From Branchiostoma floridae (taxonomy: Eukaryota > Chordata > Leptocardii > Amphioxiformes > Branchiostomatidae): DNA of 64,000 nucleotides. The DNA lies in the NCBI RefSeq assembly GCF_000003815.2, contig NC_049979.1, positions 17,663,117 to 17,727,116 of the forward strand, read 5' to 3'. This document shows positions 11,255-61,156 of the stretch, piece after piece. The number at the start of each line of letters is the position of its first letter. Position 1 is the first letter of the stretch. The position numbers and the translations under genes are program-made. Below the pieces are notes generated by a model. It did not search any database. It was not told the origin of the DNA and saw only the letters and a program-made list of their open reading frames with translations.

Positions 11255-14008
11255 TCAGTGGGGTTGGTTGCGTGAGCAGCCTGAGCCTGAGCAGCATTGG
11301 TCACCCTCCTGCTGTTTCTTGACTCCCAGAACTGTCTTCTTGCTGAGGATCTCATAGCAATACTCATCTGCCTCCATGGGGTCACACAGTCCGGGGTCTG
11401 TTTCATCCAGCTCAAACCTGTCAATCACAAAGCAAAAGTCACACTTAAAATAATTGTTGATGACTAAAACTCAAATTGCAGTTGTAAGACAGGATTGCGT
11501 TGTTCAGTATGACAAATATGGAGTATAGAAGTACATTTTAACTTCAATTCCACCAATCTTAAGAGACATTCATGCTTTTGTTGATTCTTCAAAGTATGTA
11601 ATTATAAAATTGGCTGGGTGGAATGAAGCCGACTATTACTCTGACTCTTTCAGATCAATACTGACTTTAGTGCCCTGAGGAAGAAGTCCCTGGATTCTGT
11701 GTTCATTTTGAAGACTGTGACCATCACCTTCAGCATTTGGGCCCTGAATAGCAAAAAGAAATAGTAAATATACACATACATCTAAAAGTATTTACATACA
11801 AAGAAGAAGAATGTTTTATATTGTGTAGTGAACAAAACTGCAAGTATTGTTATCTGCAAATTATGCCCAACTTACTTGTTAGCCAGGAGCTGTAAAATCT
11901 GCATCATGAACTTCCCAAGGCCTTTTCTTCGAGCTGTCTTGGTCAGCTGGATTTCATAGCTATCAAATAAAAATGGAAAAGCAGAATTATTACGGAGAAG
12001 GGAAGACATGTTTAAAATTCTATCTCAACTATAAGAATTGATATATGTTACATAACATTCTGTTTCACATCATCAATAAGGCTTTAGAAGGATGATAGCT
12101 GAGACATAATGATTTACAGGTTTTGACTTTTTCATTAAGTGGTGCTGTGATCANNNNNNNNNNNNNNNNNNNNNNNNNNNNNNNNNNNNNNNNNNNNNNN
12201 NNNNNNNNNNNNNNNNNNNNNNNNNNNNNNNNNNNNNNNNNNNNNNNNNNNNNTGAAGTGTGAGAAGGCAATGGGCTGGCCATCCTGGTCTCTGGCCACC
12301 AGGTACCAGGCCTTGTCTTCTGTCAGCTCCTCTTTTTTCAGACGATCATTCCAGCCCCAGTTACTCTCCTCATACCTGGCAAACACACACTTTGGTCACT
12401 GCTGTTATGTCATCATTACAACCATTATCATCAGAATCATCCTTTCTTCAATGTGTCTAAGTGTGCATATCTGTTAACTTTCAATGCAACTTTGGCTTTT
12501 ACTAGTACTTGGCAATACAAATAACATTTACATTTCAAGATATAAAAAAATTCAAAAAATTCTTGTGTCTGATGACCTACAATGTCTGCATGTTGTCCTT
12601 AGTAACGGAGAAGGCCCAGTCCACTGTGTCCTTGTCCAATTCAGCCACCTTTTTACACTCAATGGCCAGATTCAGCCTGTAAAACACCATTTGATTTTAA
12701 TTAGAACACAACATACTGAAATTACTTATACACATTTCTGGCCACACTAAATATCATGCAATTAAACAACGTAACAAGTTAGATCAAGGCCTATTCAAGG
12801 TAGAAGGTACAAATGTATAAAATACTTAACTGTACTGAGATACCTCCAGAGGTAAGTTCATTTTGAGTTCATGTATGTACTCACCCATTCCTTTCATATT
12901 TCTTGAATGGAGCCATTGTTGCCATTGGGTCTTCTTGCTACAAATGGAATGAAACAGCTTGCTCAGCTTAAGGACTTCCTACATTCAGAATCATGATTAA
13001 GGTCAAGCAAAAGCTAACCAATTGATTGAGTAATTCTAACAGCAATATAAACAAGAGAATTGGTCCAGTGAAACCCACTTCTGTCTTACCTTGTTTGCTG
13101 CCTCCACAAGAGTGAAGGAGGCTGCCAGCTTTGCCTGTTCCTGTAGAGAATTAAAAAAAAAATCAATTTCCAAAGGTATGTTATATGCGCAGAACTTTGT
13201 AATGTTACAAGATAACAAAAGCTCCTTTTTTTCTTTTTCATGCATTTAAAAACCTTGGCCTCAACAGAAGACATAGTAACTCTTGAACATGAAACTCACC
13301 TCCTTTCTCCTCTTCTTCTTTTCCTTTCCTTTATTTGATTTCCTCTGAAACAAAAAATAAATGTGAGTTTTAAACGTATTTGTGACTTGGTACTGTCTGT
13401 CCCTTTTACAAGCTAGAACAAACCTATCTTCAACCTCTTTTCTTCACCAGAAATAGTTCTTTTCAAAGGAAGATTAACCCTTCCATGTGTCTATAATATC
13501 CATATATAATATTGCAATTTCACCATATTTGATATCAATAATTGTGACCGACTTTGTTCAAGGCCTTTAACGTTACACATTGATCTATGACAGGGGCTAA
13601 TGGAAGGCTAGCCTGTCATTAAGAATCTTTCCCGCAATTAATAACAAGCTAATAATTAATTTGGTTTATAATAAACCAACTGGAAGTGTAAGTTGGTGAA
13701 GTCAACGTCAGCTCAAGGGAGGTTAACCTCATAATTTGATACCTACGTTAGTCAATAGTTCAATAAACGTTAGAGTTGTTTATAAACACACTGGTAAAGT
13801 GAAAGAAAATCTGTATTGAGCTTTTTCAGAACTCGATCGTGAAATTTTTATCATCTCTGATCCTGTGCCCCCCCCCCTCCCTCTGCCTGCCTCTTACTCG
13901 TCTGAACTGTACAAGAACACAACACCATTAAAGAAAAACCGCGACCAAATGAGAATCAGAATATAACAAACTGTTTCTTTGATATCACTATCGGAAACTT
14001 ACCCCCAT
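11255..14008 (-). CDS. NAA40: N-alpha-acetyltransferase 40 (NatD), interrupted by an assembly gap
   Basis: Acetylates the N-terminal serine of histones H4 and H2A; a GNAT-fold enzyme. Exons, in transcript order: 14008-14003 (MG only), 13344-13300, 13140-13090, 12937-12885, 12676-12581, 12375-12254 (runs into the gap), 11959-11876, 11743-11666, 11417-11255. The start [17 protein letters not shown] resembles the basic N terminus of NAA40. Diagnostic stretches are the [13 protein letters not shown] region, [28 protein letters not shown], and the acetyl-CoA loop [17 protein letters not shown] (Q/R-x-x-G-x-G/A type). About 12 residues between AFSHF and YEIQL fall in the N run. The estimated length is about 244 residues; human has 237. 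It ends [13 protein letters not shown], cysteine-rich like the vertebrate tail but different in sequence. Divergent from CATSPERG. Confidence 0.93.
12154..12253. other. Assembly gap of 100 N inside NAA40
   Basis: Exactly 100 N, the customary size for a gap of unknown length. It removes the 3' part of the NAA40 exon that starts at 12375 and its donor site. Confidence 0.99.
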
Positions 14009-14416
14009 TTTCGATCAGATATGAGCGTGGAAGACCTGCAAACTGGTTCGACCAGATACCAGGAGCACCTTTCTTTCCCGCGAAAAGTCTCAAATTGTTC
14101 AATCTCGCGAGATTTCACGAGGTTATGTTCCGACGGCATAGTTCATATTCCGAGATTGGGAGGTGATTTTATTGATGAATAAATGCCTTAATACCAACAA
14201 TAGAAAATAGTTGGAGTTAAATAGATAAACATGTGCTTAAAATAATATAGTTTTTCAATAATGAACTATAAAAACATGAATCAATTTTGCAAATGAACTT
14301 AAACAATAAACCTATTACCATATGAGAATCCCCCTCAGTGTAGTGTAAAGTTCCAGAAGTAGGGTTACTCGTGAAGGCTTATGGGATTGAATCTTCAGCC
14401 AGGCGGGAAGTTAAAA
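14009..14416. promoter_or_regulatory. Bidirectional promoter NAA40 / CATSPERG with TCTCGCGAGA
   Basis: The ATG of NAA40 (14008, - strand) and the preferred ATG of CATSPERG (14417, + strand) are about 410 bp apart and face away from each other. A perfect palindromic TCTCGCGAGA lies at 14103-14112, with CCCGCGAAAA just upstream. This motif is known from vertebrate CpG-type and bidirectional promoters and is bound by ZBTB33 (Kaiso)-type factors; its use here is inferred. No TATA box is evident for either gene. Confidence 0.65.
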
Positions 14417-17400
14417 ATGTCAAGCATGTTCCGAACGTTTGCCCTATGTTATTTTGTGTGCAACATTGTTTGTAGAACCATTTGTGCCTCAGACTTTAAG
14501 AAACTTCAATGGTGGGTAGATGAAATCCGATATAGTCACTTAGCGGAGAGCGTGGCTGTGCAGTCAAGTTCGCCTTTAGTTCCTGTTGGGAATGTTTGGA
14601 AAGACCTCGGTGTTCAAAATGTTGTCAGTGAACTTCAGGTAAGGCTAAGGTAAAATGGCACGGATAAAGTGTCGTTTTTGTAAGTGAAGAAAGGACAGGA
14701 TCTTAAAGCAAGCTGATTAGAATATCTAAATTGAGTCTTAATAGTTTTTGTTGGAGTTTCTCGATTAGGGTTGACATTTTTTTGCTGTATTATATTTTGT
14801 TTACTATCTAACTAATTTTCACATTTCATTCGTAATGATGATTTTTTTCTCATGCAGGATGACTATTCCTCATTTCCATATTGGTTGAGGATACAAGTGA
14901 AGCAGAATAACAAGGTAATCGTAATAACACTGAAGTGTTCCACGTCTCATCGGAAATGTACAAATATAATCTATGTAGTGATATATGAGGGTCTGCATGG
15001 GCAGTCTCGGCAACGATTTACGCTGAATTCAGAAGAACCCCCTACGTATTACGCTATAATGAAGATAAAAGACATAATGTGTTCCTGCGGTTCGTCATCT
15101 GAAACTGTTGCTCACTATCTGCCACACTGTCCTCTGTACCATTTTCCAACTTGCCCTTCCTTTCCGCAACTGCCCTTCCTTTCCTTGCCCTTCCTTCCTA
15201 CAAACTTACCAGAAATCACAAAATTCCATCCACAATGTCTCCAATTATATGCTATTGACCTACATATAGACCCATCACCCTATGGAATAACCAAAAAGAT
15301 AACCTTGGCAAAGGCAATAAATCTAAAAAATGTGAGTCTTAGCCTAGGTATTGGATAGCTGCAACAGTTGTAAGTTTACATAGAAACTGCAAAATCCTGA
15401 GTTTAACCAAATAAAGATACTGCCTTTATCCAATCAAACTGTTATTTTACTATTATAGAGGCTTACATGTGTATGACAACTAACTGTATGACAAAGTATT
15501 TCAATACCTGCACCCTCCATCTTGACAGGTTTCTCACAGTGCAGCTAGGTATCTTGCTCTACGTGGCATTACTCCAGTTGTAAGGTTCCTGCCCAGAGCA
15601 AGCCCCAGGGTGGACAACAGTTTACCCTCCGGCAGTATGGAGCTACATGGTGCACTCATTGATCAGGCTGGTATGACAGGAATGCAATTCATTGCTTCTA
15701 GATGTCACCACAGCATCTCATGTTTAGTGTCTTTCTGAAACTGTCATAGTAAGATTAATGTCCCATAAAAGCCATGTAACATGGATGCATATCTCTTTAC
15801 TTCACATCATTTTATGGTGAATATCATGTATCACTTAAGTGCCAAGGTACCAACAAAAAGCTAGACTGCCCTCCATACTGTTGTCAATCTGACCTTTCGA
15901 AAGACTGGGAAATTTGGGACCAACGATGTTGGGGGTATTTCTGGTATTGCTGCAATACAGGATGTTCTGTGATCAATCATCTCATCATGTTGGCCTATAT
16001 TATTGTTGCTTGTGTCATACAATGAACAACATAATTATTGTACTCGACACATTAGTTTGGACTTCAGTAGCTCTGCTTGAAATTTTATCCTCTAACTTTG
16101 TGTTTGTAACATCCTACTTTGATTTACCTCTCAGACTGGAAGGTGGACCATGATAACAGCAGCTGCTACTTTCTCTGTGAGCCAGCCTGGCTGGTGCCGT
16201 TACCTATGGACAACTATACCAGCTTACCAAGGGTGGAGGTGTTGGGCGGTGGAGATGCTGTTCTTATGAAAATGTTAAGGTAGTAGCACAACAACAAATT
16301 TAGCTTCAGTAAATCTAGAAAGTATCCAATAACTGACTGTCTCAACTCTTCGGGTGATCATTATATGATATTAATTCATCCTGTGACTGCAGAGCTATTT
16401 CTAAATTCTAGCTTCTAAAAACCCAGATGTCACAGTCTCTCTGTTATTTTGAACAGGTCAAAGATTCTACAACGTCATGCGACACTTTCTACTTTCAATT
16501 TCTCCCTTTTAAATTTATGTTTCTATTATATGTAGTTAATGGTGTGGAATATTTTTTGTTCTTGATCTAACTGGGTATAAATTACTTTTTTGATTATCTA
16601 CCCCACCTTCCATTATCCTTCCTTATTCACCCCTAATGAGCAACATGTTTCCTCAGTGAAGGTGTCCACATCCACCACTTCCACTCCCAGCTCCTGGAGT
16701 TTCCAGATGCCCTAGGAAACAAATCTGACCTGAGTGTCAGTGACCTTGCTACCTGGGATCCCTATCATGCTGTACACATCCCATTGTTGTCACCATCTAT
16801 CATAATGACAGGGTTTAGCAACTCAACCCTGGGTGTCTTCACATCAGATCAATTTGAAACACACAATGTCATCCAGGTACTGGTTATATAATCTACATGT
16901 ATGTTGATCTTGTTTTACTTTCCTTTGCAAAGATTCACAGATGCTGGAATGTGTTTGCATGTTGTCATTTTGACTATAACACAGAAGGAAATTTACATTT
17001 TCATATGACAGCAACACATTTTAATATGATTTTACAAATTTAATAGATCAGCTCCATTGGTATCTGATAGACTCTTTACTATCCAGTTTAGGATCCCAAG
17101 TAGACAAGAGACAAATCTGTGCTCAGGCTGGACTTCTGCACCACCTACCATCTTCAGTAACCTGATGTTTCCAGGCAGTTTCCTTCTGGCCACCTCTGCT
17201 GGGGTTGTTCAGTATCCTCTGGGGGAGTATGCTAACACAACTAAGTGTGTAAGTAAGCTGATTGGTCCAAGTGATCCTCTATCTGGAAGGTTCCAAGTGA
17301 TTGGGATTGGAGGTGAACCTGATAAAGGAGATGTTTTGGTGGCAGACATGACTGATTCCAAGTACCAGGCAATAGACTTTGTGGAATTAGTTGACCATAG

Positions 17401-20400
17401 GAACTTGTCTTACTGTGCTGTATTGGACAGGACTGGTGACTATTCAGCATGTACTTTAGTTGATGCTGCCATCAGTCCAGTGACCAACCAAACATTCCTT
17501 TTCTTGGTTCTAACAAATGACATGAATGCAGACAAACATTACCACGTAATGCAGTTCATTGGTGAGCCTGGTCAAGGCACATGGGAGGAACTGTCTGTTA
17601 TATCAGATAAGCTGCCACCTAAGTCACAGTTTGACCATTTCACATGGTTAACAAGTGATGTTCAGGACCAAGGACAGGACCAACTTACACTGACGGGCAT
17701 GTCCTTCTTGGGGATGGTGTCACAAGGCCTGTACCTGTGGGGCAGTGCTGTTTTGTACAGGTAAATCTACATGTTTATTGAAAATACTCAGTCTGTTTTA
17801 TTGTATATTACAGTGCACGATTGGTGCCTCAAATCAATGACACTATCACATTTGTGTGTTAGCCTGGGTATCAACCTCTTTAGCTACTATTGGCTTTATC
17901 TTTTTGCTTCTTTAGTGGGAAAGCAAGAAAAAGAGAATGCCAGTAGTAACTACGGAGAATGGCTAATGGGTGTGTCAAATGAGATCCTTGTTCTTGTCTC
18001 TCTCAGTGAAGATGCAGGAAGGACCTTGTGGTGGCTTCACACCTTCATGTCTAACTCTACTGTCACCCAGCTTGTACCGTCTGGAGATGGGGCTTTTGCC
18101 TTCCTCACCGATTCACAGGAGGTTATAGGTTTTATTACCTTTGTACAAGGCTAAATTTTAGCAGGGTGTTTCTTTGTGCACTTCATGTAGGTAATAGCAA
18201 CACAGTATTATCTTGAATGTTGATTCCCATGATTGTATATTTCTAAGATTGTAATTAAGACTGAAATATGCACTATATTGCTGATATTTATAATGTATGT
18301 CCAAATTTTGAAGTAAGAAAGTACAATATTTGTACTTTGAAATTTTTTTTCTCGTAAAATAAAGATTACAGAACGTTTGTATGTTACTTTACAACACCAC
18401 AACATAAAGACCCTTTTGATTATATTTCTATGCTGAGTTGAAAGAAGCCATATTTTCCTGACGAGCCTGTCTACCTGCTGTTGGCTTCTGTCCTTTCAGT
18501 TATGGTATGGGATGGCTGGCACCACTCGGCTCGTGAAGCTGAGACCCAGTGAGGGTTGGTCTTTGGCAGAGAGTTTTGGTGACCTGCAGATTCGCTGTCA
18601 CAACACCAGCACACTTGCCATATTCATGGATATCAATAGTGAACTCAGGGAGGTCTGTACTTCTTCTTTCTTAGATCATTTTTACATATAAATTTTTAGA
18701 TACGTGGACCAGTCTAAAAAATCATGAGAAACATTGTCAGCTCTTGGTTTTTTTTTGCAGTGTCAGTTTGCCCATAGCCTTTGTTTGAAGGTTAAGAGAA
18801 CCAGTTCACAAAGGCTTACTAGTGCCTGTTTCTCATGCAAACTAATGCATTGATAGAGGAGGCTGTTATTTGTTTTCTGTAAGGTCAGATGTATGTTAAA
18901 CACCATGTCTCCCTGCAGGTCCTGACCATAGTTACCAACAATAGTGTTCAGATATCCAGTCAGACCATCCCAGTCATAGACATTTTGCAGCATCAAACTT
19001 ACTTAACTGGAATTCAGAAAATGCGGACAGCTTTGGCAGGGTATGGATTCAATCAGAATATTAATTTAGAGGAGTTAATTTCTTTGGTTTATTTTTTGGA
19101 ATGTTTTATTCCCTGTCAGGATCAAAACAAGGGTCTCCTGTTTTTATACTGCTTCTCTTGGGATGACAATAATGTAATGGTTATTTTATTGCAGGCTAGA
19201 AAGTCAAGTTACTGAAAACCTTTGAAAGTTTCTGTTCAACAAAGCTTCATCACAAATTTTGAACTAACAGCTAACAATGTTCTGCCCCTGCTTCATGTAA
19301 TCCTGGATTCCATTGTTGACTTTCATGTTACGTTCTGTTTTTAACTTTGTCATAGAGCAAAGCAACATGGCAGGTTTTTGAATTGTGGATGCCAGGTTTT
19401 AACTACATGTATTATCATTTGCTAACATTTGGAAATCCTTGGCAACATACCTTGCAGAACGACAGATGTGGACAACTTCCCCGTCACCATTCCCCGCAGT
19501 TGCCCCTACTCCTTCATGCAGTTGGAAATACCAGACATCCAACACAACAGTGACATGAAAAAGTTTAACATCCGACCAGCACATATAAGTTATTCCCGAC
19601 CTGTTCATACGTCAGACTCCCTGGCTGTGTACTCTGGGATGGTACACTACATGACCCACTACAAACCACCTCAAGAATGGGTTAGTATGGAGGTACAATG
19701 TATTGGAATGGGCTGGAATTAATGATATATGGTATCAGCATACCAGGAGCATGATATCATGTCTTGCACGTCCAGTTTGTTTAATTATAGTTTTGGATTT
19801 CATACTCAAGTGCTTTTTTTAGCAGTACACAAATACACTAATTGTTCACGAATCATTTTCTATTTTGGAAAAAAAATGACGCAATTGTAACTCCTCCTCT
19901 GCTTCTGTGCATTAATTGCAGGCATACAGTCTTGCTGCTATTAATAATTTCCAGAACCTGCTGGCTGCTCATGAGAATGTGCAGGTATTAGTTCTTTCTT
20001 TTGTTGTTTAAACTGCAAGTGCTTTCAATACAAAAATTTTACTATGGCATAGTGTTACCTTTATTATGGCATTGTATTATAAACACATAATGTATAATTT
20101 GTTGGCAGGTCATTCAGAAAACAGACAGTATTTAGTTAACTTACCAGTTTTTGTTGCTGCTTGGTTCCTCATTAAGTGTAGGAAATTTAAACATTTATTT
20201 TGATGCATTACCATGTTCCTCTCTCCAGGATTACTATACATACATGTACTCAACACGGAACATAAAAGATGTGTTTCTCAGCCTGGAGGATTACCAGGAA
20301 GTAAGTGTTTGTTTTTTGCGCTATTGACTTAGTTTTGAGTGCTTAGATTCAATACATTTGTTTTTAAAATGTTGGAACACTTGCTATAGGAATCTTTTTA

Positions 20401-23400
20401 TTAATCTTAACCCTACAGCCGCACAGCAATGCCAGTGCCACACAATTTCCGCAGCATGTCTTCCTGGACACCAAAGCCTCCTTCATAGTCTACATCAGAA
20501 TGAATCTGCACCCTGCTCACCCCAAAGGTAATCAGTCTGTATTCTCTATACATGTACATCATCTATCATGTTGAACTTTACTTAAAAATGGACCCAATAG
20601 TCTTGTTTGATATGTTTTCCTGCTTGTTGCAGACACGGAGACATACGAGCACACATCCATGGATCATCTCCAGTTGTCAGTCTGGGTGTCTGAACCCACA
20701 CTCCTGGATGTCACCTCCAACAAGACAGTTTTCTACCATAACTCCTCTGTGCTCTATCAGGTAAGAAGGGGTTGAAGAACATTATTTGTCAAACTACAAA
20801 TACAAATTTATGCGTTCTTGATGTTGATGTTTCTGATCTGGGGACAAAAGACATTGCCCTGGTGAATGTTAGTTTAGTGCCTAAGACCATATCACAAATT
20901 AAAAAAGAATCTCCAATACACAGTTTCATGCAATATCCTGGCAAAGGAGTTTTTACAACAGCCATTAAAATATAGGACAAATGCTCAGCTGCCCCAGAAC
21001 ATTGGTAAATCTGTGTTGTAAATTCAAGATGCTGTCCGGTATGGTTACTACTTAAGTTATCGGGTAGCACTATTGATCAATCGTGTTTCAGTAAATAGAA
21101 CTGATGTGTCCTCCAGATTACTGTTGCAGACACAGGTGTGTACAAGCAGCAGCATCCTCCTGGAGAGAAGTTACAGGCTGTGTCTCTCCAAATGCAGGTT
21201 TGTTCACCAACCCAAGGCAGTGTTACATGCTGTGCTGTATGTAGTTGGCAAAATGCCCCATGTGTAGGCCCATTGCTGCACTACAGGGACAGTTCTGTTA
21301 ACTTGTGTGTGTTTTCAGCACCAAGGACAGGTATTGACAAAATGATTATTGCGGGAAGCCATCTTTTATTTCATCTTTGCATATTGTATCAGTTGACTTT
21401 TACATTACTGTTTACCATCTTGTCATTTACCTTCTTGTCATTACCTTCTTGTCATTCAAAATGGATACGACATTTCTTCCAATGTTGATCATTATGACAA
21501 CTTAGTTAAGTTTTCACACATGTTGTCTACAGCCTTGGAATGCACCCCTGAACTGTTTTCACCAGGAGAAAACACAGGTAACACACTGGAGAGGCAGCAT
21601 TATTAGCAATAAGCTATGTTCAAAGTGTGAAATTCTATGTTTGATAAGAGGTGTAAGTAAGTCATTTGTACAATTTATATTTGTTTATTATTATCATCAG
21701 TATTGCAAGGTAAATTACACCAGTTGAACTATATGGATGTAAGTTGATTTTATGTACCAGCATTTTGTATTTCTATTGCCAGTATAACTTGATATATTGA
21801 TATACATGTATTTGTTGTTTAGGGAGTGTTATCAACCAGAGTGATGCTGGGATGTCCCTTGTCAGTGAAGGTCCTGTTTGACTCAGCCACTTCCCTCCCA
21901 TACTCCATTACTAAGTACAGCTGTCGGCAGACTGATCCTGACATTCCCTGCTTCTACTTGAACAAAGGTGCATAAGCCATAGTTGATATCTATGGCACAT
22001 TAGCACCACACTACTGTTTTACCCTGATCTTATATAATGTATATGTAGAATACCAGTAATCTGTAAGCCATATGTTCTTTGAATGAGCTGTGTTGATTTG
22101 GCATCACCTGTTGATACTACAGACTGTTGATTTATCAGTGAACCCATCATTTTAAGAGCATACATTTACAGACCATATGATGAGCATCTATCATATTCAA
22201 CCAGGAGTAAGGATTAGATATAATCATCAGAAGTTTTAATGTTTGACATCTTTTTTTTTTTAGCCTTCAGACCATTCTTTAAGGTGAATGACCTTGTGAC
22301 AAGGACATCTGTTGAGTACAAGGGAAACTACACCCTACTGCTGATTGGTGGAGGATGGAATTCTCTCAGTAATGTTGAGATGTGGAGTCAGGAACAGGTT
22401 GAATTGTACAACCCTCACTTCAGGTAGATTCTGTGCTGTTAGGTTAGCTACTAATTAGTGTCAGCAATGAAAAGGCTTTAGAAACTTTACCGTGACTTTT
22501 ATTGGCCATTTTGGCATATCTAGAAAGTCATTATTATTCCTTTGTTGACAGGGAAGATGCTCCAGCCATGTGGTGGCCAGGGTCCAGTGTGCTAGCAACT
22601 GACAGGATTTTTAGCCAGAACCAAAATGTCATCAGGTCAGTTATTTTCCAATGAACCTTGTATTCCCTAGCTGTGGACTATACTATGTGCACAAAGGAAT
22701 ATCTATCCATTTTATGACAATGTGTTTGTGTGTAATTTTCTTGTTACAAATGCTTATAGAGTCTCTCCGTGGTGCTGAACTGTTGTCGCTACCAGGTTGC
22801 TGTGAGCCCAAATGTCAGGTCCAAACACTACCTATAAATAATGTATTGTGATTTGTTTGCATGATTTTACAATGTTTATCTTTGCCTCGATTATATTTGT
22901 TGTTCTCGTTTGGCAGCTGGATCTGGCCAATGGACTCTCCTTGGTGTCAACTGGTCCCAAACCTGGGAGCCGTACCTGAATACTACCTACTCTTCCGTTT
23001 TTCAAACAAGTATCCATATGCCCATTCTTATACATTGTTTCATCCCATGTTTGTTTTTTTCGTATATAATCATCATTCATATGGACCTGGATCATTACAA
23101 TTGTAGTTTAGTTATACCTGATTCTCACAATGTATTCCTAGATTATTGATGTACTCAAACTGAGTCAAAGTAGTATAGTAGCATAGCATATGGATATATT
23201 CAGTTTACTTCTATAGGCTGATTCTAACCTTTACCACACAACACTACCTCATGGAATTGCAGAACAGAGTACAAGTTAATTCTTTTCCTAATTTTAGTAC
23301 CTTGTATCAAAGTTTATGCTAATTGTGTGCAGTATTGCTTTGTGTATCATGCTTGATCTCTTTATTATTTATACAGGGGAGTTGACAGCTCCACCAACTG

Positions 23401-25274
23401 TGAGCACACCCTTCAGTTTTACATTCGTGTGTATGGAAATCCCGTCCACTACAGCTTCAAGATAGCCCTACTTTTTGTATGCTTTTTTCTTTCTTGTTCA
23501 CACATTTGATCAATATTATCTGTCACTTACCCTCTGCTTCAGAATTTATTTGGACCACTTATTTTTATGTATCTTTACTGTAATGCAAAACTGATGTATG
23601 GCCAATGTGTAATGTCCTAGTTACCCATAGTACACCACATGTTACCCATAGTATGCCACACAATGATTAACAGTCAAAAACTGCAGTAGCTAGTACATTT
23701 TTAATCGTTTTGTTCCTTGGGGTTAGGTTCTATTGACAGATTTCCATGTTTCTTCAAGAATCAGTATGGATAGATTATCTATGGCCTCTGTGCATTAATA
23801 ATTAGCTCTGTTATTGTTTCATACAGGCTACATTTGTATTTGGACTGCTGGCTGCAATTACATACTACCTCTGCCATCGCAATGATGCCAAGCTCTGGAA
23901 TAAGGTGGTACGACCAGTGACTGACAGGATGTACAATACCAAGACATACTTAAAGAGAAGATTAAGCATGGGTAAGAAGGGAAAATTGGTGCCTCCAACT
24001 GTCCAAGGAGGCTATATGAACCTCTTGGTGCCTCATTTTTTCCTAATTGACTTTTTTAATGCCATACCAATTTAATTATTGGTTCTCAGACTTTAAAAAA
24101 ATGGAGTGACAAGGTGAAAAAAAGAATCAACACATTTTGCAAAAAGTCTGGAGTGAAGATAATGGCTTTTATAACATAAAGTATGATAAGCCTTCAGCTT
24201 GAAAAAGTAAACAATCTGTAGCAGACAACCAACTTATCCCGGCACTTCTATCATGCAGATCATATAGCTATAGGAGGTGTAGCTGTTTGTTGGAACTTAT
24301 TAAAGTAAAGTATGTCACATTCACAGAAGCTTATAAAGCCACTTAAGCCAACTTGGTATACTGGAAAATCGAAAATTGTTTAGTGGCTTCAAAGTCGAAT
24401 TTTTGTCAGTTCAAAAAAAATAGTAGAGGGCAATTCAGAGAACCTAATCGATTTGGTATGGAATTAAAGAAGAAATTTACAAAAACTTACTGAGGAAAAA
24501 GGCTTTTAAAGTTTTGTTTGTAATAGTCTAATCTCCATGCTTTATTTGAATAAATAATCCACTGGTTGCAATGTGAAGTCTTTTTAATTCTCGCAATGTT
24601 ATGCAGTACTTGCACCACCAACATTTAATGCAGACAAAGCAGAGGGAGTGGAGAAGGAGGATGGGTTCCAATGGAGAGCTGATGAAGACCTGGACACATC
24701 AGAAGGTGGAGTGGAAGGTACAAGTTGTAAAAGTGTCTCTCAACACTGCAAACTGATCATACTCTGTCTAAGGCCATGTACATTGTACAGTATGTATTGT
24801 AGTATAAGAGCAATCAAAACGTAAGGACAAAGTCACTGTTTGGTAATTTTTCTACAATATAAGTTGAATCTCATCATTACACAGTACGGTGATATTCATA
24901 ACGCATAAATGTAACGTTGTTGAGTCAAGAGCATCTTGAAATATGCCTGCCATACTCAACGCTGGAAATGTGAAAAAATTATGCAAATGTGTCCATGATT
25001 TACTGTCAATCTGAATGGAGATTTTTAGATTCGGAATATTTGCATTTTTGACAGGAAAATTCCACAATACATTGAACCTTTCGGATTTTTAGCTGACTTT
25101 GATGGAGAGAGATGTTACCCTTTGCCAATTCTCTCTCGCCCTACAGAGCCTTTTACTACCCCAGTGGTGCCCATGCCTAACATCATAATCCAGTCCGGCA
25201 GTACAATGGATATGGAGCTGAGCCGTCGCCACAGGTTGGAACCACTGGACTTTACTCATCAGCACAAGACTTGA
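14417..25274 (+). CDS. CATSPERG: CatSper auxiliary subunit gamma, 24 exons
   Basis: Single-pass subunit of the CatSper sperm calcium channel, with a large extracellular part. Exons: 14417-14638, 14858-14914, 15529-15670, 16135-16279, 16657-16876, 17087-17760, 17884 (or 17863)-18121, 18500-18652, 18919-19040, 19458-19680, 19922-19984, 20229-20300, 20419-20527, 20633-20760, 21117-21197, 21533-21577, 21823-21967, 22264-22423, 22552-22635, 22917-23009, 23377-23476, 23827-23971, 24607-24717, 25093-25274. Phases close to 1237 residues; human has 1159. Features: signal peptide (FRTFALCYFVCNIV), DDYSSFPYWLRI, LRGITPVVRFLP, many N-x-S/T sites, C-terminal CEHTLQFYIRVYGNPVHY, one membrane span (ATFVFGLLAAITYYLCH plus the preceding ALLF) and a short cytosolic tail. 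An alternative in-frame ATG is at 14381; I prefer 14417 because it puts the signal peptide near the start. Gamma rather than delta/epsilon is judged from the N-terminal motifs by memory. Confidence 0.85.
14988..15142 (+). mobile_element. Decayed non-LTR retrotransposon fragment in CATSPERG intron 2
   Basis: An open stretch here encodes ...IMKIKDIMCSCGSSSETVAHYLPHCPLYH, a C-S-C ... H-x4-C zinc-knuckle pattern like the region after the reverse transcriptase domain in LINE ORF2 (zf-RVT). Only this piece is recognisable. It ends in a pyrimidine-rich run of CCCTTCCTTT-type repeats at about 15146-15200. Not part of CATSPERG: the upstream exon ends at 14914 with a good donor. Confidence 0.5.
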
Positions 25275-25518
25275 GACATTGTAAACTCTTTCATATTCTC
25301 TTTCTTCTACTGAACTACCTTTCTGCACTTTTTAAGTGCATTTTTGTACATAGACCTAATAGCCAAGAGGTTGCCATTATTTCTATAGATTAAGACAAAA
25401 ACCTGTAGAGGATTAAAGCTAATTTTATTGAGTGAGTAGAATAGCTCAATATTAATGGTCATAGTATGTTGTAAACTTGTATGTCAGGACATGTGAGTTC
25501 CATAGTGTGTAGCAGTTG
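25275..25518. terminator. Shared 3' region of CATSPERG and CATSPER1 with facing poly(A) signals
   Basis: Only 244 bp separate the two stop codons. On the + strand ATTAAA at 25412-25417 can serve CATSPERG; on the - strand AATAAA at 25429-25424 can serve CATSPER1. They are about 7 bp apart, so the mature 3' ends should abut or overlap. A second + strand AATAAA at 25716-25721 would extend the CATSPERG transcript across the last CATSPER1 exon. Confidence 0.6.
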
Positions 25519-28500
25519 TTACATGTCCTCCTCAACCTGCAATCAAAAAAACGCAGGATATAGTAGTATGTACAATATGTACAAAGTCATGTTAAGGTTT
25601 GTTATCTTTATCAATGAATAGTCTGGTAGTAATCAGTTGATTGGGCTTTTTGAATAATTGACCAAGTGTAAATGTATCATATTTGATAATTTTTGGGGCA
25701 TGGGGTTTGAAATGAAATAAAGCTAAGCCATGTATATACATTATGCATTAAAACATTCCCAGAGTTGTTTCAAATGTCAAAAGGTGAATTAAACTACATG
25801 AAAAACTAGGATCCATATGCAAGTCTACATGTTTTCTCATCAGGTGTTCTACCAGGCATGTATAGAGACAGTTAACTCACCACAAGCTCAATAAAGTTGT
25901 CCACAACGGTCATTTGGTTCTGCAGAATGTGGTTATTGTACTCTAAAGAGGCCAGCAGCTGGAAGGACCGAGTCATCAGTTCCTTCTCCCTGACAGTGCA
26001 AATACATACACATACTTTAGGATAGGACCTCTTACATTTACCAATGAAAAAGTAGATTCAAATTAACAAATCATACAACTCAGCAATAGATGTAGAAGCC
26101 TCTGAGAGGACAGCAAGAAATTATGAAAGTTCCTAACACGTTTACAATGAAGAATAATTTCTGGTGTGCAAAAGTAATGAAAGATTAGGTTGCCTGTACC
26201 TGGTTGTATAGCCTTCAGGATAATAGTTGTTGATTGTCTTTTTCTTGTGCAGATGCAGTACATCTTCCTCCTCACTTTCATCTGTATATATGGCAAACAT
26301 TCACTAGTGTCTACTCAACCTTAATTTAGGAGCATAACTATTGATTCCAGTATGAGACACAATCACATTTTACAATGCCTCCCGGTCATAATACCTGAAC
26401 GTTAACACATTTAATTCTTGCCTTACTGGTTATAGGCCACACTTCCATAACANNNNNNNNNNNNNNNNNNNNNNNNNNNNNNNNNNNNNNNNNNNNNNNN
26501 NNNNNNNNNNNNNNNNNNNNNNNNNNNNNNNNNNNNNNNNNNNNNNNNNNNNNNNNNNNNNNNNNNNNNNNNNNNNNNNNNNNNNNNNNNNNNNNNNNNN
26601 NNNNNNNNNNNNNNNNNNNNNNNNNNNNNNNNNNNNCCTACCATAACTTGATGACTCGTAGTCATCATACCAGTCGTCATCAGAGTCGTCATCATCAGCA
26701 GCACGCTGAAAGTGAAGTGGACCAGTGAGCAGCAGAGAAAAAAAATCATATGTAATTAGGACAACATAACATAGATGTAATTCTTGGGGTCATTTTAAAC
26801 TTATTTCTAATCAGATTCAATAATAGCTTGATCTTGCCAACTGACTACAACTATTGGTTGTAAGGGTATTCTGTACCCCTTACCTTATGTTTCTTCTTGT
26901 GCTTCCTCGCCTCTGCATGATCCTTAAGGGTCAGCTGAAAGTTGTCCACTAGCACAGCAACAAATAAGCTAAAAACAAACATTAGAAACAGTTTTACAAT
27001 ACATGATACAATACTCAGAAACAGATAGCCTAAAGCTCTGCATCGCTATGTTCCCCCTAGAAAAGCCCGTTTTAACAACCTTCTATCTTTTAAGTTTCAG
27101 AAAGGAGAAAAAGAATCTATGATGTACCTACTTGAGGAAGATGAAGTACTCCATGATGATGTAGAGGAACAGGTAGAGAAAGATGTGCCATTGCCCTGCA
27201 ATGTGAAAAATGCATTAACGTCGATATTGCAAAGGCACTCAATGCCTTTTTATCCATCAAATGTAAAGGAAAGCATTCTATGGCACACAATCACGCAGGC
27301 CAGCAGCCCGTATGAGATTCGAAGGGCGCCCGCCTGCCGCCCCGAGCCTTAGTAGGGCGCTAGGTCACTGCCGTAAAGTAGTCGTGGTGCGTCCGTGGGC
27401 GATGTCCTTGGTGCTGAACTTGGTGATTAAAAGATGGAGTTCATTTTATTATTTGCATTTTGGGGAAATTGTTAATATGTTGCCTTTCTAGATTTATTTT
27501 ATTTAGATGGCACCAAGGCATGCGCAGTTTACAGAGGGCATTCCAGGCACCAATGCTGATGTTGGTTGCCATAGTGCATACATATATTATACGGTGAAGT
27601 TGTACATCATTCACGGTTTACTGAAACGCTTACAATAGCGAAATCAGTCCATGATTCAACACGTTGTCGCAGCATGTTGCTGATATCGAACAATATGTGT
27701 ACTCTCCAAACCTGGGTCGTTGCTGACTGCATCACTGTAAATGTAGTACCAATCGTCCAACGTCAGCAGCTGGAATAGCGTGAACATGGCAATTGCCAAG
27801 TTGTCGAACCGACCATTCTCACGGTAAATGCCCGCGTACAGTCCCCGTCCAATCACTGCAAACATGTCTGGATTTGGGTCAAGTTAACAGTATGCAAGTC
27901 GGCACATAAAACAATTGCTAGATCAGCAAGTTATAATTATGTCTGGAAGATAGATTCTTTTTGTACTTTTTTTGTAGTTAGAATATTGTTATCGATAAGT
28001 GTCCTGTCATTGTCCAATTCCATTTGTATTGTGTCTATTTTCGTCAGCAGGGCTAGCCCTTTGTAATAGCCACAGGCTTGTTGGGTAGCCCTGGCTGTGC
28101 GTGCTGAACAGCCAAACCAATAAATAGATAAATAGAATATAGATATAGCGTCGTTAGTCTTTCACTATATTTATAAGCTAGCACGTACGGGTCAAGGAAA
28201 ATGTTAAGCCCTCCGAATTTATCTGACCTTAACATTTATTAGTTTACTTTATGGCACTGTGGAAACTTTGAAAGGATACACAAGAAGAGGGACATGAGGA
28301 GGAAGATGGCGCCCATGGACTGGATGGACTGTAAACATGTTGTCATGATCACTTGCAGGTTGCCCAGAAATCTAAAGACAAATTAAATTGTCCAACTTAA
28401 ACACAGTTACATGAAATATATTAATTCATTGTAGAACAATTGTTTATGATTTGTAGAGATTGAACCCTTGGATTCAGTTATAGTAATTCCAGTGCAAATC

Positions 28501-29599
28501 TAATGCTGATTTTGTCGAGGTTGAAATGTACCTGATAGCTCTCAGTGCCCTGAGCGCTCGGAAGATGCGGAAAAGACGGAAGATTTCCGCTGACTCTGTA
28601 CCTGATGTGGCACTGGATGGTGCACCACCTGTGTACAGATCCATGATGACGTCAATCAGGTTGAACATCACTATGATGAAATCTGTTGGAGGGAATTAAG
28701 ATAAAAGAAGAATCAGTAACAAGTCATTGAGAGTTGCTGTTATGCTGGTCTAGCCCGAGATGGCTAGAATTTATATGAGTATGTAAACTATCAATTCTTC
28801 ACAGACATCACGTCAAGAGTGCATTGTGCTAAAATGAAACGATGATTACGTGTTGTATCGACATAAATCCTTTTATTTTACTAACCTAAGTCATTCCAGC
28901 CTTCTTTGAAGTACGACCCTCGAAAGGCGTATAACTTCATGACGCACTCTATCATGTAGATACCGCTGAACAGCTGGTCCAGCACCATCAAAAAGGACCC
29001 TGCATGTACAAATTGTTGGTTAACCAGATACAAAATGTACGTATTCTACATGCTATGCTAGAATATGCTAGCGTGCATAATCTTTAAAACAGCTGACATA
29101 AAGTAACAATATGACAATACATGTATCACCAACCTGCGCCAACTTCTATCTCTTCAAAGGTCTGCACCACAAGCATAGTGGTGTTGAGAAGGATCACTAC
29201 AAGGATCATCCCGCCGAAGAAGTTCGAGTCCACCATGTCGTACACAGCTCTGCGGAGAGGGCTCGCATTCTTAAGCAGTTCTTCCTTCACCTTGTTCACC
29301 TTCTTGGCGGCACTCTTGGCCGATACCCCCGTGGTCTTACTATCTTCTTTCGTGACGACTTCCTGTACATGTAGCCGATTGGCGTGGTCTTGGGAATGCA
29401 CGCTGACACGTGTATCCATTTGGCTACCGAGGAACCGTTTAGCAGCACCAGGCCGAGAGATGGCTTCCGAGCTTGGTGCAAGGTCTGCAGTATGAGATGA
29501 GTGTTTCGATTTTGATGGGCCCCAATTAGGATCTGGTTGGGCCACGGATTTTCGTCTCTTTTTCTTCCGTTTGGGAAGGCTGGTTGATGATTCGTCCAT
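25519..29599 (-). CDS. CATSPER1: CatSper1-type sperm cation channel subunit, interrupted by an assembly gap
   Basis: One six-transmembrane pore subunit of the CatSper calcium channel in the sperm flagellum. Exons in transcript order: 29599-29134, 28999-28886, 28682-28532, 28371-28280, 27855-27712, 27195-27132, 26968-26884, 26705-26642, then 26452-26427 (upper end in the gap), 26281-26200, 25989-25881, 25536-25519. N terminus of about 115 residues, Lys/Ser-rich. S1 GGMILVVILLNTTMLVVQ; S3 DFIIVMFNLIDVIMDLY; S4 FRLFRIFRALRALRAIR with arginine every third residue; pore LLTLDDWYYIYSD carrying the CatSper T-x-D-x-W motif; S6 IIMEYFIFLNLFVAVLVDNFQ (in two exons). The cytosolic tail has acidic runs and ends FQLLASLEYNN...FIELVVEEDM. 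CatSper1 rather than 2-4 rests on the pore, S6 and tail as remembered. Tail-to-tail with CATSPERG. Confidence 0.87.
26453..26636. other. Assembly gap of 184 N inside CATSPER1
   Basis: Hides an intron and part of a coding exon of the CATSPER1 cytosolic tail. The same 7-base word CCATAAC lies close to both edges (26641-26647 and 26445-26451), which may reflect a local misassembly across two near-identical ends. The exon called at 26452-26427 is therefore uncertain. Confidence 0.95.
27970..28135 (+). repeat. LINE 3'-end-like repeat, copy 2
   Basis: In a CATSPER1 intron, antisense to that gene. Homologous to 7437-7583 in the same + orientation, ending GCTGAACAGCCAAACC followed by AATAAATAGATAAATAG. 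Probably a truncated non-LTR retrotransposon copy. Confidence 0.55.
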
Positions 29600-31148: not shown

Positions 31149-31349
31149 TATAAATACCCCGGTGCATGCTGGTCAGGACATGACGTCATGTCCTCAGGTC
31201 AGGTGATTAGCTGAACTTTCATGGCGGACGACCTGACGTGTGCGCACTGAGAATATCACTGCAGAAATCAGAGATTCTCTATCTCCCACTCAACTTTCTG
31301 TCAAATCTCACACTTCTAAACGTATTGGTAAACCCTTGGGACGAATAAA
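31149..31349 (+). promoter_or_regulatory. NAPA promoter region: TATA-like box and CRE palindrome
   Basis: TATAAATA at 31149-31156 lies about 200 bp before the alpha-SNAP ATG. At 31175-31194 there is a perfect 20-bp palindrome centred on TGACGTCA, the consensus cAMP response element bound by CREB/ATF bZIP dimers. Whether the TATA-like word is used, and where transcription starts, cannot be seen from the sequence. Confidence 0.5.
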
Positions 31350-34300
31350 ATGGCAGCAAAAGAAGAAGAAGCCCAACAGCTGATGATCCAGGCCGAGAAG
31401 AAAGTGAAGTCGTCCCAGGGATTTTTCGGCTCCCTGTTTGGAGGGTGAGTTGGGATCGATCCTTGCTTTGGTGCATAGTGGGCGTGATCATTGCCTTCTG
31501 TTGTGTATTTGGCTTCATTTTAACAGCTAGGCTTCGGAGGTTTAGATTCTGCTAATGTGCGTTCTTTGTTTTGTATAGTGGCTCTTCCAAGCTGGAGGAC
31601 GCAGCTGACATGTACGTGCGGGCTGCCAACATGTTCAAAATGGCCAAGAAATGGAGCGGTGAGGTTCATGACAACGAAGCCTTCTCCCTCAATCAGTCAT
31701 GAAAGATTCATCTAAATTCATTTAAAATGTCACGATTTAATGAATACAGAGGTCATCTGACTGGTTATATCCTATATATAATCAGTCTAAGATCCTTTGG
31801 CATGCGAGGTTAGGTAGCAGAGAATTATGTCTGCTTTGTTTACCTCTAAATGACATGATGCTGTACAATCATGTACAGTCCTCCATACTCTAGTAAATTG
31901 ATTTGATGGCATACAGCAAGTATTGTCCTTTGACAGCAAAATTAATTACTTATGCAAAGTCTACCAAGTAGGGATTGGTTGCACAGGGTAGAAAATAATG
32001 ATGATATTAAGTTATGTCAAGGAACAAATAGCCATTCATTGTCGGTACAATGTAACGTTACATATAATATGATGTGGAATATCTGTTTTTGTCATGCATG
32101 AATGTAACTCCAGCCTATCAATGCACTCACTAATCAACAATGATATTTTCTTTCAATGTCAGCTGCTGGCAATGCCTTTTGCGAGGCAGCCAAACTTCAG
32201 ACCCAACTGAACAGCAAGCACGAGGCAGCCACATGTTTTGTGGATGCAGGGAACTGCTTCAAAAAGGCAGATCCTCAAGGTATGGAGAATTTTAAGTCTT
32301 ACATGTCTCTTACACGTGTTTGGTAGACTGGCTTTCAACTGAAGTTGAATTATATATAACCAACCATAATGGGGTGTGTACCTTGGTTTTTATTGTTAAC
32401 CTCACTGTCATTCCCTTCATTTCATATTATAGAGGCTGTCAACTGCATTTCCAGAGCTGTGGAAATATTTACTGACATGGTGAGTAAAGTGTTTTTGTAC
32501 CAGATTGGTGAAAATGATACTTCTGTTCCCTAAACTTCTAGGCTAACATTGGTGGTCTTTTTATAGCCACATGCACTGTTGTTTACATTTTGAGAATTTT
32601 TGTGGATGAATAACAACATTAGGAGCTTTTGGTAACTTCTAAATGTCACTTCATTACTATTTTTATGTCCAGGGTCGATTCACTATTGCTGCCAAGCACC
32701 ACATATCCATAGCTGAGATTTATGAGACAGAGATTGTGGATATTGACAAGGTTTGTGGCATTGATTTAATTGCTAATGAAGTTGTAACACTTTTAGAATG
32801 ATCTGTACACTGTGATCATATAGCAGACAGAATCCATTGATTTAATGGCTTTATTTGTTTAGTATCTGTTGTAATGTACAGTTCATCATACTTTGTGTCT
32901 CAAACATAAAGCAATTCTAACATACCTATAAAATGCTAATGACATTGGTAGTTGTAATCAGCAGTGATTGAAGGACATTTCATGGTGCTCTAATCTAATC
33001 CCTTCAAATCGATTTTCTAGTCTCAGACTCTTAGTACAGGAAACAGTCGTCATACCGTACCATACTTAAATTTGCAATGAGAAATTTTTCATTCACAATG
33101 TTGAAGTATCAAGTACTAGTATGCTTTGTAGCTGTAACAATCATCAGGTTAATTTCTTGTATCTTGAATTTGCTTGATTGTGAGCAAGGACGTTCTATAT
33201 AATGTCCTTGGTGGACACTTGCGAATGATGCTGGTAGGGATTCAAATACTTACAAGAAATTAAAAAGATGCCAAACAATCAGTTTTTCTTCTTTATTCCA
33301 GGCAATCTCCAACTATGAACAGGCGGCCGACTACTATAAGGGAGAAGAATCATCAAGGTGGGCCACAGATAATTTGTCCTTTAACATAACACTTTTTACA
33401 TAAGCATTTTTATCATAAACCAACTGACAACTTGCAAATTTAAATTAAAGCATGGTTCACTTGGCTGCAGATGTCATTCATATAGAATTTCCTAAACAAT
33501 AGTGTATTCAAATTTCGTAGTTAGGCAGCATGGCACATAGAAGGCACATCTCTCATGTATCTTTGATGGTAACTAAAGAGGATTAAAATAAGGACAGCAC
33601 CATAGGTGAATACTTTTTGTGATCCATTCTGACTCAAAACTCTAATGCAGGTAAAAGATAATCTCATAAGTTATAACATTACAGGTAAGTATATGCCAGG
33701 TATTTATTCCTGGTGAAATGTTGCATCATCCAAGTTCTGGTTTAATTTTTTATAGTGCAGCACTGTCGATGGAACATGACATTTCCCTTTCTTTGTTTTT
33801 CCATTTTCCCTCCTACTATCTTTCGAGGATTTCCTGACAAGAACTTGGAAGTTTGCATAAAGTAAACTGTATATAGCACCAAAGTGGTCATTAATAACTG
33901 AAAACACATCTGTTTCTGTTACCTCTGTCCATGCCATAACATCACATTTCATACATGGCTGTTTGTGTCATCTGTTCTTGCTACTGGTGTTCTGTAGTGA
34001 GTAGAACTGTTTACTGTGTTGTTTCCCCTGCTGTTCAATGGCTTCCGAAGACGAAGGTAATGAAAATGTTTTCGTCAGCAACCCTTCCATTTCTCATCAA
34101 TATTTAATCTGTAATGAAGGCTATAACTTTTAAACCACTAGAGTGTCTGGTATTGTCATACCAGAAAATATTTTATTCATGACCACTTTGTGAACAGATG
34201 TCATAGAGTCACTAATCCAGATCTCATGCAGTTTTCTCCTCGATTTATTTTGATTATGATCATCACTTACATGAAGTACATTTCAGTAGTTAGCTAAGAT

Positions 34301-36028
34301 GTGGAAGTTTCATTGCACATGACAAGTAATGAGAAAGCAAGGATAACACTCTGAACACAATGTTACCAACCGACTGTTCAACCATGAACTCGATGTTACC
34401 AACTAACAAAGAATAAACACTCAGACTGCATGTAACTCCTCTTCCTAATGACTATGTATATGTTAACTTTAGTCTTAAATACAGTGCTTTTATCTTTGTT
34501 TGTTCTAGGAGCTCCTTGATTTGTTGTGTTTATTGAAGTCACTCCCACTGAATATTGATACTGCACTACTGTTTTGATTTTGCCCTGGTCTAGGTACTAG
34601 TACTAGTATATATAAAGTGCTAGTGCGTTGTGATCCACACAATGCACAGTGAAGGCGTAGCATATGTTAAAAAGGAGGAGGATACTATTAATCAGAATTA
34701 AGTATTAGGCCAGAGACCTGAGTATTGTGCCTAAAGTACAAATATGCTGCCATTGTTACAATGATAGAAAGAGAAAGGCAGACAATGACAATCCTGTAAA
34801 TGTTCTTGTGTTTTAGCTCTGCGAACAAGTGTTTGTTGAAGGTGGCTCAGTATGCAGCCCAGCTTGAGCAATATCCCAAAGCCATAGAGATCTATGAACA
34901 GGTATGTTACATTGTGAGATTTGGTACATGGTAAGATCTAGAGTGATCTCTAATGTGTTATATCCTCATTGTACTAGACCAAGACCAAGCTTCACTTTGT
35001 CATTGTAGTACACCTGTAAATATTTCTTTCCTTTTTGTCAGTATGTATGCAGTTCAACTGTTTCCTGATTCAGGACTCTTAAGAAGATACAGCAAAACAT
35101 CCAGTGTGTAGACAGATTTTGAAACAAGAATTCAAGATACAAGCTAGTTCTTATTGCACATAATGAGTATTCCCCTTTCTTCAAAGGTTGCAGTGACAGC
35201 CATGGACAACAGCCTTCTCAAGTACAGTGCTAAGGAGTACTTCTTCAAGGCAGCTCTATGTCACTTGTGTGTTGACCTGCTTAATGCTCAGGTATGTACT
35301 TTATTGTAGTTAGGTGATAACATTGATATTATTGATATTCATTGGTTGAGTATGTCGGTTTCATAAGGTATTCAAGAACATGTTAATGCAAGTAGTTCTC
35401 AGGCATTGTTTGACTACTGCAGATTTTTCAGGTTTTATTACTCTGAAGGAACATGTTTTTGTTGTCTGTTTTTACAGCAAGCTGTACAGAAGTATGAAGA
35501 GATGTTTGCAGCTTTCTCAGATACTCGGGAATGTAAACTTCTAAAGGTAGGACAGTAATTTTGTCCCAAATAATATGTCTTTATTTACATATCTTCAGCA
35601 TTTATTAACATAATGTAGTAAAAACTGTTAAGTTGTGATTTTAAACTCTCTCTTCCTCTTGTTCTTGTAGACTTTGATGACAGCTCTGGAGGAGCAGAAT
35701 GCAGACATGTACACAGATGCTGTGAGTACAGCTTGTATCTTATTATCATTGTGAATCTTACAAACATTTAAGTGGGCAACTCCAGTACTATTCTGACTTG
35801 TCACTTTATTACATTTGAAAGGCTATGAATATACATGATGTGTGTGACATGTATGCAGTACATTTGTTGAGCACTTTCAAGAGAAACAAATAGCATACTC
35901 ACTGTACATATGTGCACCTCTTGCAGGTTAAGGACTATGACTCTATTTCTCGGCTGGACCAATGGCTGACAACAATGCTACTGAGGATCAAGAGAACTAT
36001 CTCAGGGGAGATGGAGGATTTACGATAA
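31350..36028 (+). CDS. NAPA: Alpha-SNAP (NSF attachment protein), 11 exons
   Basis: Adaptor that binds SNARE complexes and recruits the ATPase NSF to take them apart after membrane fusion. Exons: 31350-31444, 31579-31658, 32163-32279, 32433-32479, 32673-32750, 33302-33357, 34817-34901, 35187-35291, 35478-35546, 35671-35721, 35927-36028. Phases close to 294 residues; human alpha-SNAP has 295. Recognised by the membrane-binding loop FFGSLFGG, then [85 protein letters not shown], and the NSF-activating C terminus [15 protein letters not shown]...EDLR. The protein is an all-helical TPR-like solenoid. Vertebrates also have beta (NAPB) and gamma (NAPG); this is the alpha/beta type. AATAAA at 37245-37250 gives a 3' UTR of about 1.2 kb. 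Confidence 0.98.
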
Positions 36029-37265
36029 TTACTTCCTCATACGCAGATGTCATACTGCCCAAGGACACATTTGCTAGCAATATATAGCATATTTACCAAT
36101 ATGATCTGCCATCAGTTTTATGGATTGTAGCATCATCACGTTACATGTACTTTTTGTCCTGCAAGGAACAAATGGACAGATTGTCCATTATGTTCCATTG
36201 AAATACACATATATGTGCTTATGCAGAACTGTTGATCTTTCCATCCAGACAGGATTATTTCTTGCTGAAAATTAGCATGATAGATTAGTTTCAGATACAT
36301 GTAGGTAAATGTAAAATGTACTCAAGACGTAGTGCTATGACCATTACACATCCTTGTATATTGTCCTTACTATGTTTAGAATTGTTTTAATCAGTTTAAG
36401 ATAAATTTTGAATTTCTATCTTCAGAACTATTTATTTGGCCATCTGTCTTGCTCTTTGGTCAATGTACAACTGAAGTGTTGGTAAGGATTTTCACTTTTG
36501 TACATTTAATGTTCATTTCACAAGGATGATGTGATGAAAAATAAGTCACTTATTTTTTTTTAAGCTTCAGTAAGCTAAAATGGCTTCAGTAATTCCATAG
36601 ACCTGGCAAACATCCAACTGCATTTGGTTTTGTTGATTTCAAATTGAGTTTTGTAGATGTGATTTTATGGTTATCCAACATTTTCACTTTTTGTTTCGTC
36701 AGGCATATCTAATTCTAAGAAAATACTAATGCAACACCACTGCTTGAAGCCAATACCTAAACAGAAAATGTTTAGAATGCAGAAATTGTGGTATGTAATT
36801 GTAATTGTAGATGTTTAGCTTAGAGAATGAGAAAGCTGGCTCAAAAATATACTTGCTTCTCTAGAAAGGCGTTCAACAAGTACTGCTAAGGTACAGTAGC
36901 TTGCTGTTAGCTGTAGTTTGATACAGATGAATGTTGAACAAGGATTAATAGGCACAAAATCGATTGTTTACGTCACATCTAGTACTTGTAAGATATTGTA
37001 TTGTTGTTGTGTTTGTGCTGTAATGTTGTCTACTTGTATTACAAACCCTGTATTCTAAAAACCATGACTTGGGATATACTGGAAATTGCTCTCATTATAC
37101 CACAGAACTTAAAACCTTAGACAAGTAGTTAATTCAAAATTGTATTGAACTTCCTGTATAAACTATAGTAGAAGTAACTCGAGATATATTGTAAAGACAT
37201 TGTACAGAAAGAATCTGTCATGATACAAGATTATTGATGTTACAAATAAAGTGTTTGGAATATGG
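36029..37265 (+). other. NAPA 3' untranslated region with AATAAA
   Basis: From the TAA at 36026-36028 the stretch is AT-rich without exons. The sense poly(A) signal AATAAA at 37245-37250 is the best candidate 3' end. No protein or RNA gene is recognised. Confidence 0.6.
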
Positions 37266-57127: not shown

Positions 57128-57189
57128 GTCAGAACTCACAACTGGTGGTAATAAAAGAAATAACTCAGCTCCTTCCATTTTTTTAGCAC

Positions 57190-61141: not shown

Positions 61142-61156
61142 TGTTGTTGTTGTTGT
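61142..61156. repeat. TTG microsatellite, possible retrotransposon tail
   Basis: Five TTG units. Both retrotransposon ends in this window carry CAA/TTG runs at their 3' end, so this may be the tail of a badly truncated minus-strand copy. No coding remnant is attached. Confidence 0.6.

Follow-up and report, generated by a model that had tools for sequence, protein, structure and literature searches.

The window analysed here is a stretch of 64,000 nucleotides from the lancelet Branchiostoma floridae (C1:17663117-17727116), in which CATSPERG (+) and CATSPER1 (-), genes for an auxiliary and a pore subunit of the CatSper sperm calcium channel, lie tail to tail. CATSPER1 and CATSPERG map to 11q13.1 and 19q13.2 in human and to 19A and 7B1 in mouse (PMC5558725), in agreement with the separate chromosomes stated in a preliminary description of this DNA. 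The human split is best explained, and in our judgement probably so, by common chromosome ancestry followed by genome duplication in early vertebrates and alternative loss of gene copies. That the two genes are direct neighbours is most readily seen as a local arrangement, with a function that is putative at most. Gene identity and order, the single CATSPER1 locus and the positions of marker genes on the same contig were all observed here; the genome searched comprises 513.4 Mb in 431 contigs, C1 having 35.3 Mb.

Identity and junction of the two channel genes

CATSPERG extends over positions 14417..25274 (+), up to a TGA stop codon at 25272-25274. Its model of 24 predicted exons, built exon by exon, has GT/AG at the internal exon borders; the models of exon 2 (14858-15331) and of the final two exons (24607-24820 and 25055-25274) are tentative. 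Three of the four Pfam domains of known CatSper gamma proteins are recognized above cut-off in the predicted product, namely the carboxyl-terminal domain (62.2 bits, cut-off 27.6), the beta-propeller (53.6 bits, cut-off 27) and the Ig-like domain (49.3 bits, cut-off 27), whereas the amino-terminal domain stays under it (20.2 bits, cut-off 27); the model of exon 2 is uncertain. A PDB search (E<=1) gives two matches only, both CatSper gamma (E 1.8e-39 and 2.4e-39), and no CATSPERB or CATSPERD/E Pfam domain is found in the protein at E<=0.1. By these comparisons the predicted protein is nearer to the gamma than to the beta, delta or epsilon subunits. Exon 2 contains at 14918-15331 an open frame with a CxCG...H...C pattern, read by eye as the tail of a long interspersed nuclear element (LINE) reverse transcriptase. 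This frame has no Pfam match and a plasmid protein search found nothing for it; the retroelement-like part of the exon could be debris within an intron or a piece that became exonised.

CATSPER1 (29599..25519, -) has 11 predicted exons with GT/AG internal borders. Pfam assigns to its product a single Ion_trans domain (145 bits, residues 126-360) that includes S4, RLFRIFRALRALRAIR, and the pore motif TLDDW. Mouse CatSper1 (PDB 7eeb_A) aligns to residues 112-463 in one stretch with 181.1 bits, and chains of CatSper2-4 are absent from the best 60 of the 149 PDB rows, where the lowest score is 82.1 bits. Voltage-gated calcium channels outscore mouse CatSper1 by whole-chain total (up to 266.8 bits) because each of their chains holds four repeats; their best single repeat reaches 83.6 bits among the four alignments listed, each of them truncated. 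When the protein is queried from S6 to its end, CatSper1 obtains 45.3 bits, far above CatSper4 (17.7), CatSper2 (14.0 and 12.5) and CatSper3 (11.5) in the best 60 of 66 rows. The 69 carboxyl-terminal residues alone retrieve no CatSper from PDB at E<=10, the only hits being to optineurin (E 0.17 and 0.35). The scores place the predicted protein nearer to CatSper1 than to CatSper2, 3 or 4, and it shares with the mouse protein the single six-helix channel domain, the S4 arginines, the TLDDW pore and an aligned carboxyl-terminal tail. Mammalian CatSper1 has a histidine-rich amino terminus, whereas that of the lancelet protein, of about 110 residues, has no obvious histidine-rich stretch. In the genome, 10 of the 34 matches to CATSPER1, the strongest ones, form one locus (C1:17688991-17692715), while the other 24 reach at best 41.3 bits, on C2; CATSPER1 is one locus in this genome. 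Just upstream of the gene, positions 29840-30295 hold a 152-codon open frame with a zf-RVT score of 16.3 bits (cut-off 27.5), probably a retroelement tail.

These Pfam and PDB comparisons rule out misassignment of either gene to another CatSper subunit and bear out the names that the preliminary description had given to both. Its claim of adjacency also holds: the two stop codons are separated by 244 bp (25275..25518) with no gene between them. The interval carries facing polyadenylation signals, ATTAAA at 25412 (+) and AATAAA from 25429 (-), whose starts are 17 bases apart. The predicted 3' ends of the two genes therefore abut or overlap slightly, and the transcripts, as far as these signals predict, probably abut. 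A scan of the junction for promoters and terminators of bacterial type is not meaningful for animal DNA.

Could a scaffold or haplotype-merging misjoin have brought the two genes together? Two runs of N are present in the window, one of 100 N at 12154-12253 within the neighbouring gene NAA40 and one of 184 N at 26453-26636, in a CATSPER1 intron flanked by exons 26642-26705 and 26200-26281. Two divergent haplotypes were merged in the B. floridae assembly as published (PMC7269912), if it is the same one. However, the junction is outside both runs, in a gap-free stretch of 14.2 kb (12254-26452) that contains CATSPERG in full and the tail exons of CATSPER1. The second gap has CATSPER1 exons on both sides with matching phases, and the mouse CatSper1 alignment bridges it, covering 66 of the 69 residues coded to its left. 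With CATSPER1 found at one genome locus only, a misjoin at 25-26 kb, a reservation voiced when the pair was first described, is unlikely, and we consider an assembly artefact highly improbable.

Proposed chromosome ancestry and the separation of the human genes

We favour the hypothesis that the chromosome bearing CATSPERG and CATSPER1 goes back to a single ancestral linkage group of chordates (CLG), most likely CLGA (Simakov et al. 2020). This chromosome would have been quadrupled in early vertebrates. The copy leading to human 11q13 would have retained CATSPER1 and NAA40, the copy leading to 19q13 CATSPERG and NAPA, and the remaining neighbours would have been retained on 14q, 15q14 and 1q4. 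The human pair would have been parted by reciprocal loss that followed the duplication, with no need for a break, and such loss is the simplest account of the mammalian separation of the two genes.

The content of C1 is consistent with this hypothesis. RyR, SIX and glycogen phosphorylase, which we take to be CLGA markers, were picked for having human relatives on the segments in question. All four RyR-domain matches are on C1 (27.68-27.72 Mb), the only RyR locus found in the genome, together with three of the four SIX1_SD matches (25.63-25.77 Mb) and all 15 matches to glycogen phosphorylase (20.05-20.07 Mb). The search is unbiased to C1, because CATSPER1-like channels match C2, C3, C4, C17, C19 and other contigs, and CATSPERB matches C8.

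Human relatives of these markers and of the neighbours of the channel genes are, on our assumption, distributed as follows. Of the genes in the window, NAA40 would be at 11q13.1, NAPA at 19q13.3, GOLGA5 at 14q32.12, ADSS1 at 14q32.33 and DPH6 at 15q14. We take RYR1-3 to be at 19q13.2, 1q43 and 15q14, and PYGM, PYGL and PYGB at 11q13.1, 14q22 and 20p11. For gene families found in the flanks of the window, the positions are presumably 2p22, 19q13.3 and 14q24 (SLC8A1-3), 14q13.3 and 20p11 (PAX9 and PAX1) and 1q42 (GALNT2). Published positions are 2p21, 14q23.1 and 19q13.32 for the SIX genes and, in a comparison made from the human side only, 2p15, 14q22.3 and 19q13.32 for OTX/CRX and 2p14, 15q14 and 19q13.32 for MEIS (PMC2211742). 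These tabulated positions show gene families shared among 19q13, 14q, 15q14 and 2p; 11q13 and 1q4 presumably belong to the set as well. Chicken chromosomes 3 and 5 carry pure CLGA blocks and amphioxus BFL1 corresponds 1:1 with one CLG (PMC7269912). The window neighbours and C1 markers thus map to a consistent set of human segments (11q13, 19q13, 14q, 15q14, 1q4, 2p and 20p, some of them cited and the others presumed), in likeness to CLGA and the paralogons from the two rounds of vertebrate genome duplication (2R) (Simakov et al. 2020). An ancestral linkage lost in vertebrates had been offered as one origin of the pair: it finds support at the scale of the chromosome, where neighbours and markers fit one linkage group, while a break by rearrangement is not required.

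Several points weigh against common chromosome ancestry as the explanation of the human split. The human side, whose positions are in part cited and in part presumed, and the order of the losses are what we infer; beyond the CatSper and homeobox genes most of the human positions are presumed, as are all those behind the 11q13 link. The part of NAA40 left of the 100-N gap matches weakly (E 0.55, with NAA40 as sole match and none in Pfam). The human relatives of two cyclic-nucleotide-gated (CNG) channel genes to the left of ADSS are presumably not on the expected segments. CATSPERB is on C8 near 15.55 Mb (L017 and L018, four matches above cut-off), though human CATSPERB at 14q32.12 (PMC5558725) is in a CLGA-type region, corresponding to chicken 5 (PMC2572835). 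The sole CATSPERD/E carboxyl-terminal match in the genome, a probable CATSPERE exon, is on C4 near 6.72 Mb (L019:1381-1599; 18.2 and 20.8 bits, cut-off 27.4), away from ADSS, though human ADSS and C1orf101 fall within one 1q44 deletion region (PMC6219057) and C1orf101 is CatSper epsilon (PMC5362262). Genes of the CatSper complex have therefore moved between chromosomes, and a common location on one of them does not by itself prove common ancestry. The CLGA scheme, which lancelet CATSPERB does not fit, covers the content of the chromosome and not the immediate adjacency of two genes.

A wider ancestral CatSper cluster was first judged likely because human CATSPERB (14q32.12) and CATSPERE (1q44, beside ADSS) are on matching segments. 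CATSPERB on C8 and the probable CATSPERE on C4 speak against it, as they do against a functional cluster. The genome search with the CATSPERD beta-propeller gave no match and is uninformative, its controls being silent too. The CATSPERG beta-propeller search also gave none although the gene is present in the window; exon-wise family searches therefore miss genes.

Neighbouring genes in the window and its flanks

Seven successive genes within positions 1-53714 alternate in strand: ADSS (+), NAA40 (-), CATSPERG (+), CATSPER1 (-), NAPA (+), GOLGA5 (-) and DPH6 (+). With this strict alternation, adjacent genes are always arranged either head to head or else tail to tail. ADSS, for adenylosuccinate synthetase (1..7341, +; Pfam 81.7 and 54.0 bits), begins beyond the window edge and has an approximate 3' end. 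NAA40, for N-alpha-acetyltransferase 40 (11258..14010, -), has one exon of 47 amino acids right of the 100-N gap that is assigned with E 7.5e-14, its start codon and other exons being placed by eye. NAPA, coding for alpha-SNAP (31348..36030, +; E 1e-17 to alpha-SNAP), has an approximate end. For GOLGA5, coding for golgin-84 (39626..46570, -; ends approximate), one of the two exons tried gives 92.2 bits to Golgin_A5 and the other has no match. DPH6, for diphthine-ammonia ligase (48603..64000, +; start approximate), is read mainly by eye, with 14.9 and 17.1 bits, below cut-offs; it extends past the right window edge into RidA-like exons (18.0 bits, below cut-off).

NAA40 and CATSPERG are head to head, with about 410 bp between their starts (14011..14416). 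At 14103-14112 this interval contains the palindrome TCTCGCGAGA, found once in 64 kb and in 0 of 100 shuffles, which we take to be a core-promoter element of housekeeping promoters that work in both directions, so that NAA40 and CATSPERG may have one promoter in common.

A scan of 80 kb on either side of the window detects a PAX gene that was judged by eye to be PAX1/9 (222 bits), a Na/Ca exchanger gene of SLC8A type with Calx-beta and Na_Ca_ex_C (three domains above cut-off), an exon that resembles GALNT2 (E 9.3e-21, the next being GALNT1 with 0.00035) and a nucleoside hydrolase (67 bits). An exon of a short-chain dehydrogenase in the left flank (72.4 bits) is DHRS7-like by eye only; a PDB search with it did not single out DHRS7. 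Left of ADSS, two adjoining CNG channel genes (L006:7401-7517, by eye, and L007:9522-9641) are probably a tandem pair. Inspection by eye had suggested beta subunits, but an exon of the second gene matches alpha subunits instead, all 12 of its PDB rows being CNG channels with CNGA1 as the best (E 1e-10). Near the right end of the window, positions 62486-62860 (-) hold an open frame, without a Pfam match, that was judged by eye to resemble the end of a retroelement. None of the ten open frames tried in Pfam in addition to the gene models, located from 971 to 62860, matches a family above cut-off, ARAGORN run with its bacterial settings detects no tRNA, and a search of phage DNA found nothing.

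Origin of the immediate adjacency

The two genes may have been set side by side by chance, through an inversion or a transposition of local extent in the lancelet lineage, a possibility to which we give about an even chance and which is compatible with the shared-chromosome account of the human split. Gene order within linkage groups has been extensively rearranged (PMC7269912), and CATSPERB and the probable CATSPERE are on other chromosomes. On a chromosome of 1000-2000 genes a given pair is adjacent with a chance of 0.001-0.002, unremarkable over many complexes. For 9-13 channel genes among 22000-32000 genes the computed expectation is 0.002-0.007 adjacent pairs. This is low for a complex named beforehand, but the pair was picked from a scan of the whole genome and chance therefore is still a fair explanation. 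Against a lineage-specific rearrangement, no direct sign of a recent junction was found.

Alternatively, the pair could be old, with selection for co-expression in the testis keeping the two genes together, for instance by way of a chromatin domain common to both or of a coupling between their 3' ends. Both genes encode subunits of one complex, and they are only 244 bp apart with polyadenylation signals that face each other and start 17 bases apart. However, tail-to-tail genes have no common promoter, and each of the two has a housekeeping neighbour on its other side, CATSPERG being head to head with NAA40 at the TCTCGCGAGA interval and CATSPER1 facing NAPA. CATSPERB and the probable CATSPERE, the other auxiliary genes located, are elsewhere. 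We therefore hold selection for joint expression to be unlikely. It is similarly doubtful that the pair predates chordates, was selected as a unit of pore and auxiliary subunits and was then split by reciprocal loss after 2R; if this were true, the vertebrate split would have freed the two channel genes to evolve separate regulation. No report of CATSPERG-CATSPER1 adjacency was found in a literature search outside of which most subscription journals lie.

Common chromosome ancestry with alternative loss would make CATSPERG and CATSPER1 a concrete, testable case in which the genes of a complex were scattered in vertebrates through copying and alternative loss, with the chromosome unbroken. Should the adjacency be ancient, it would count among the rare cases in animals where genes for one complex stay side by side; otherwise the pair would caution against inferring function from adjacency.

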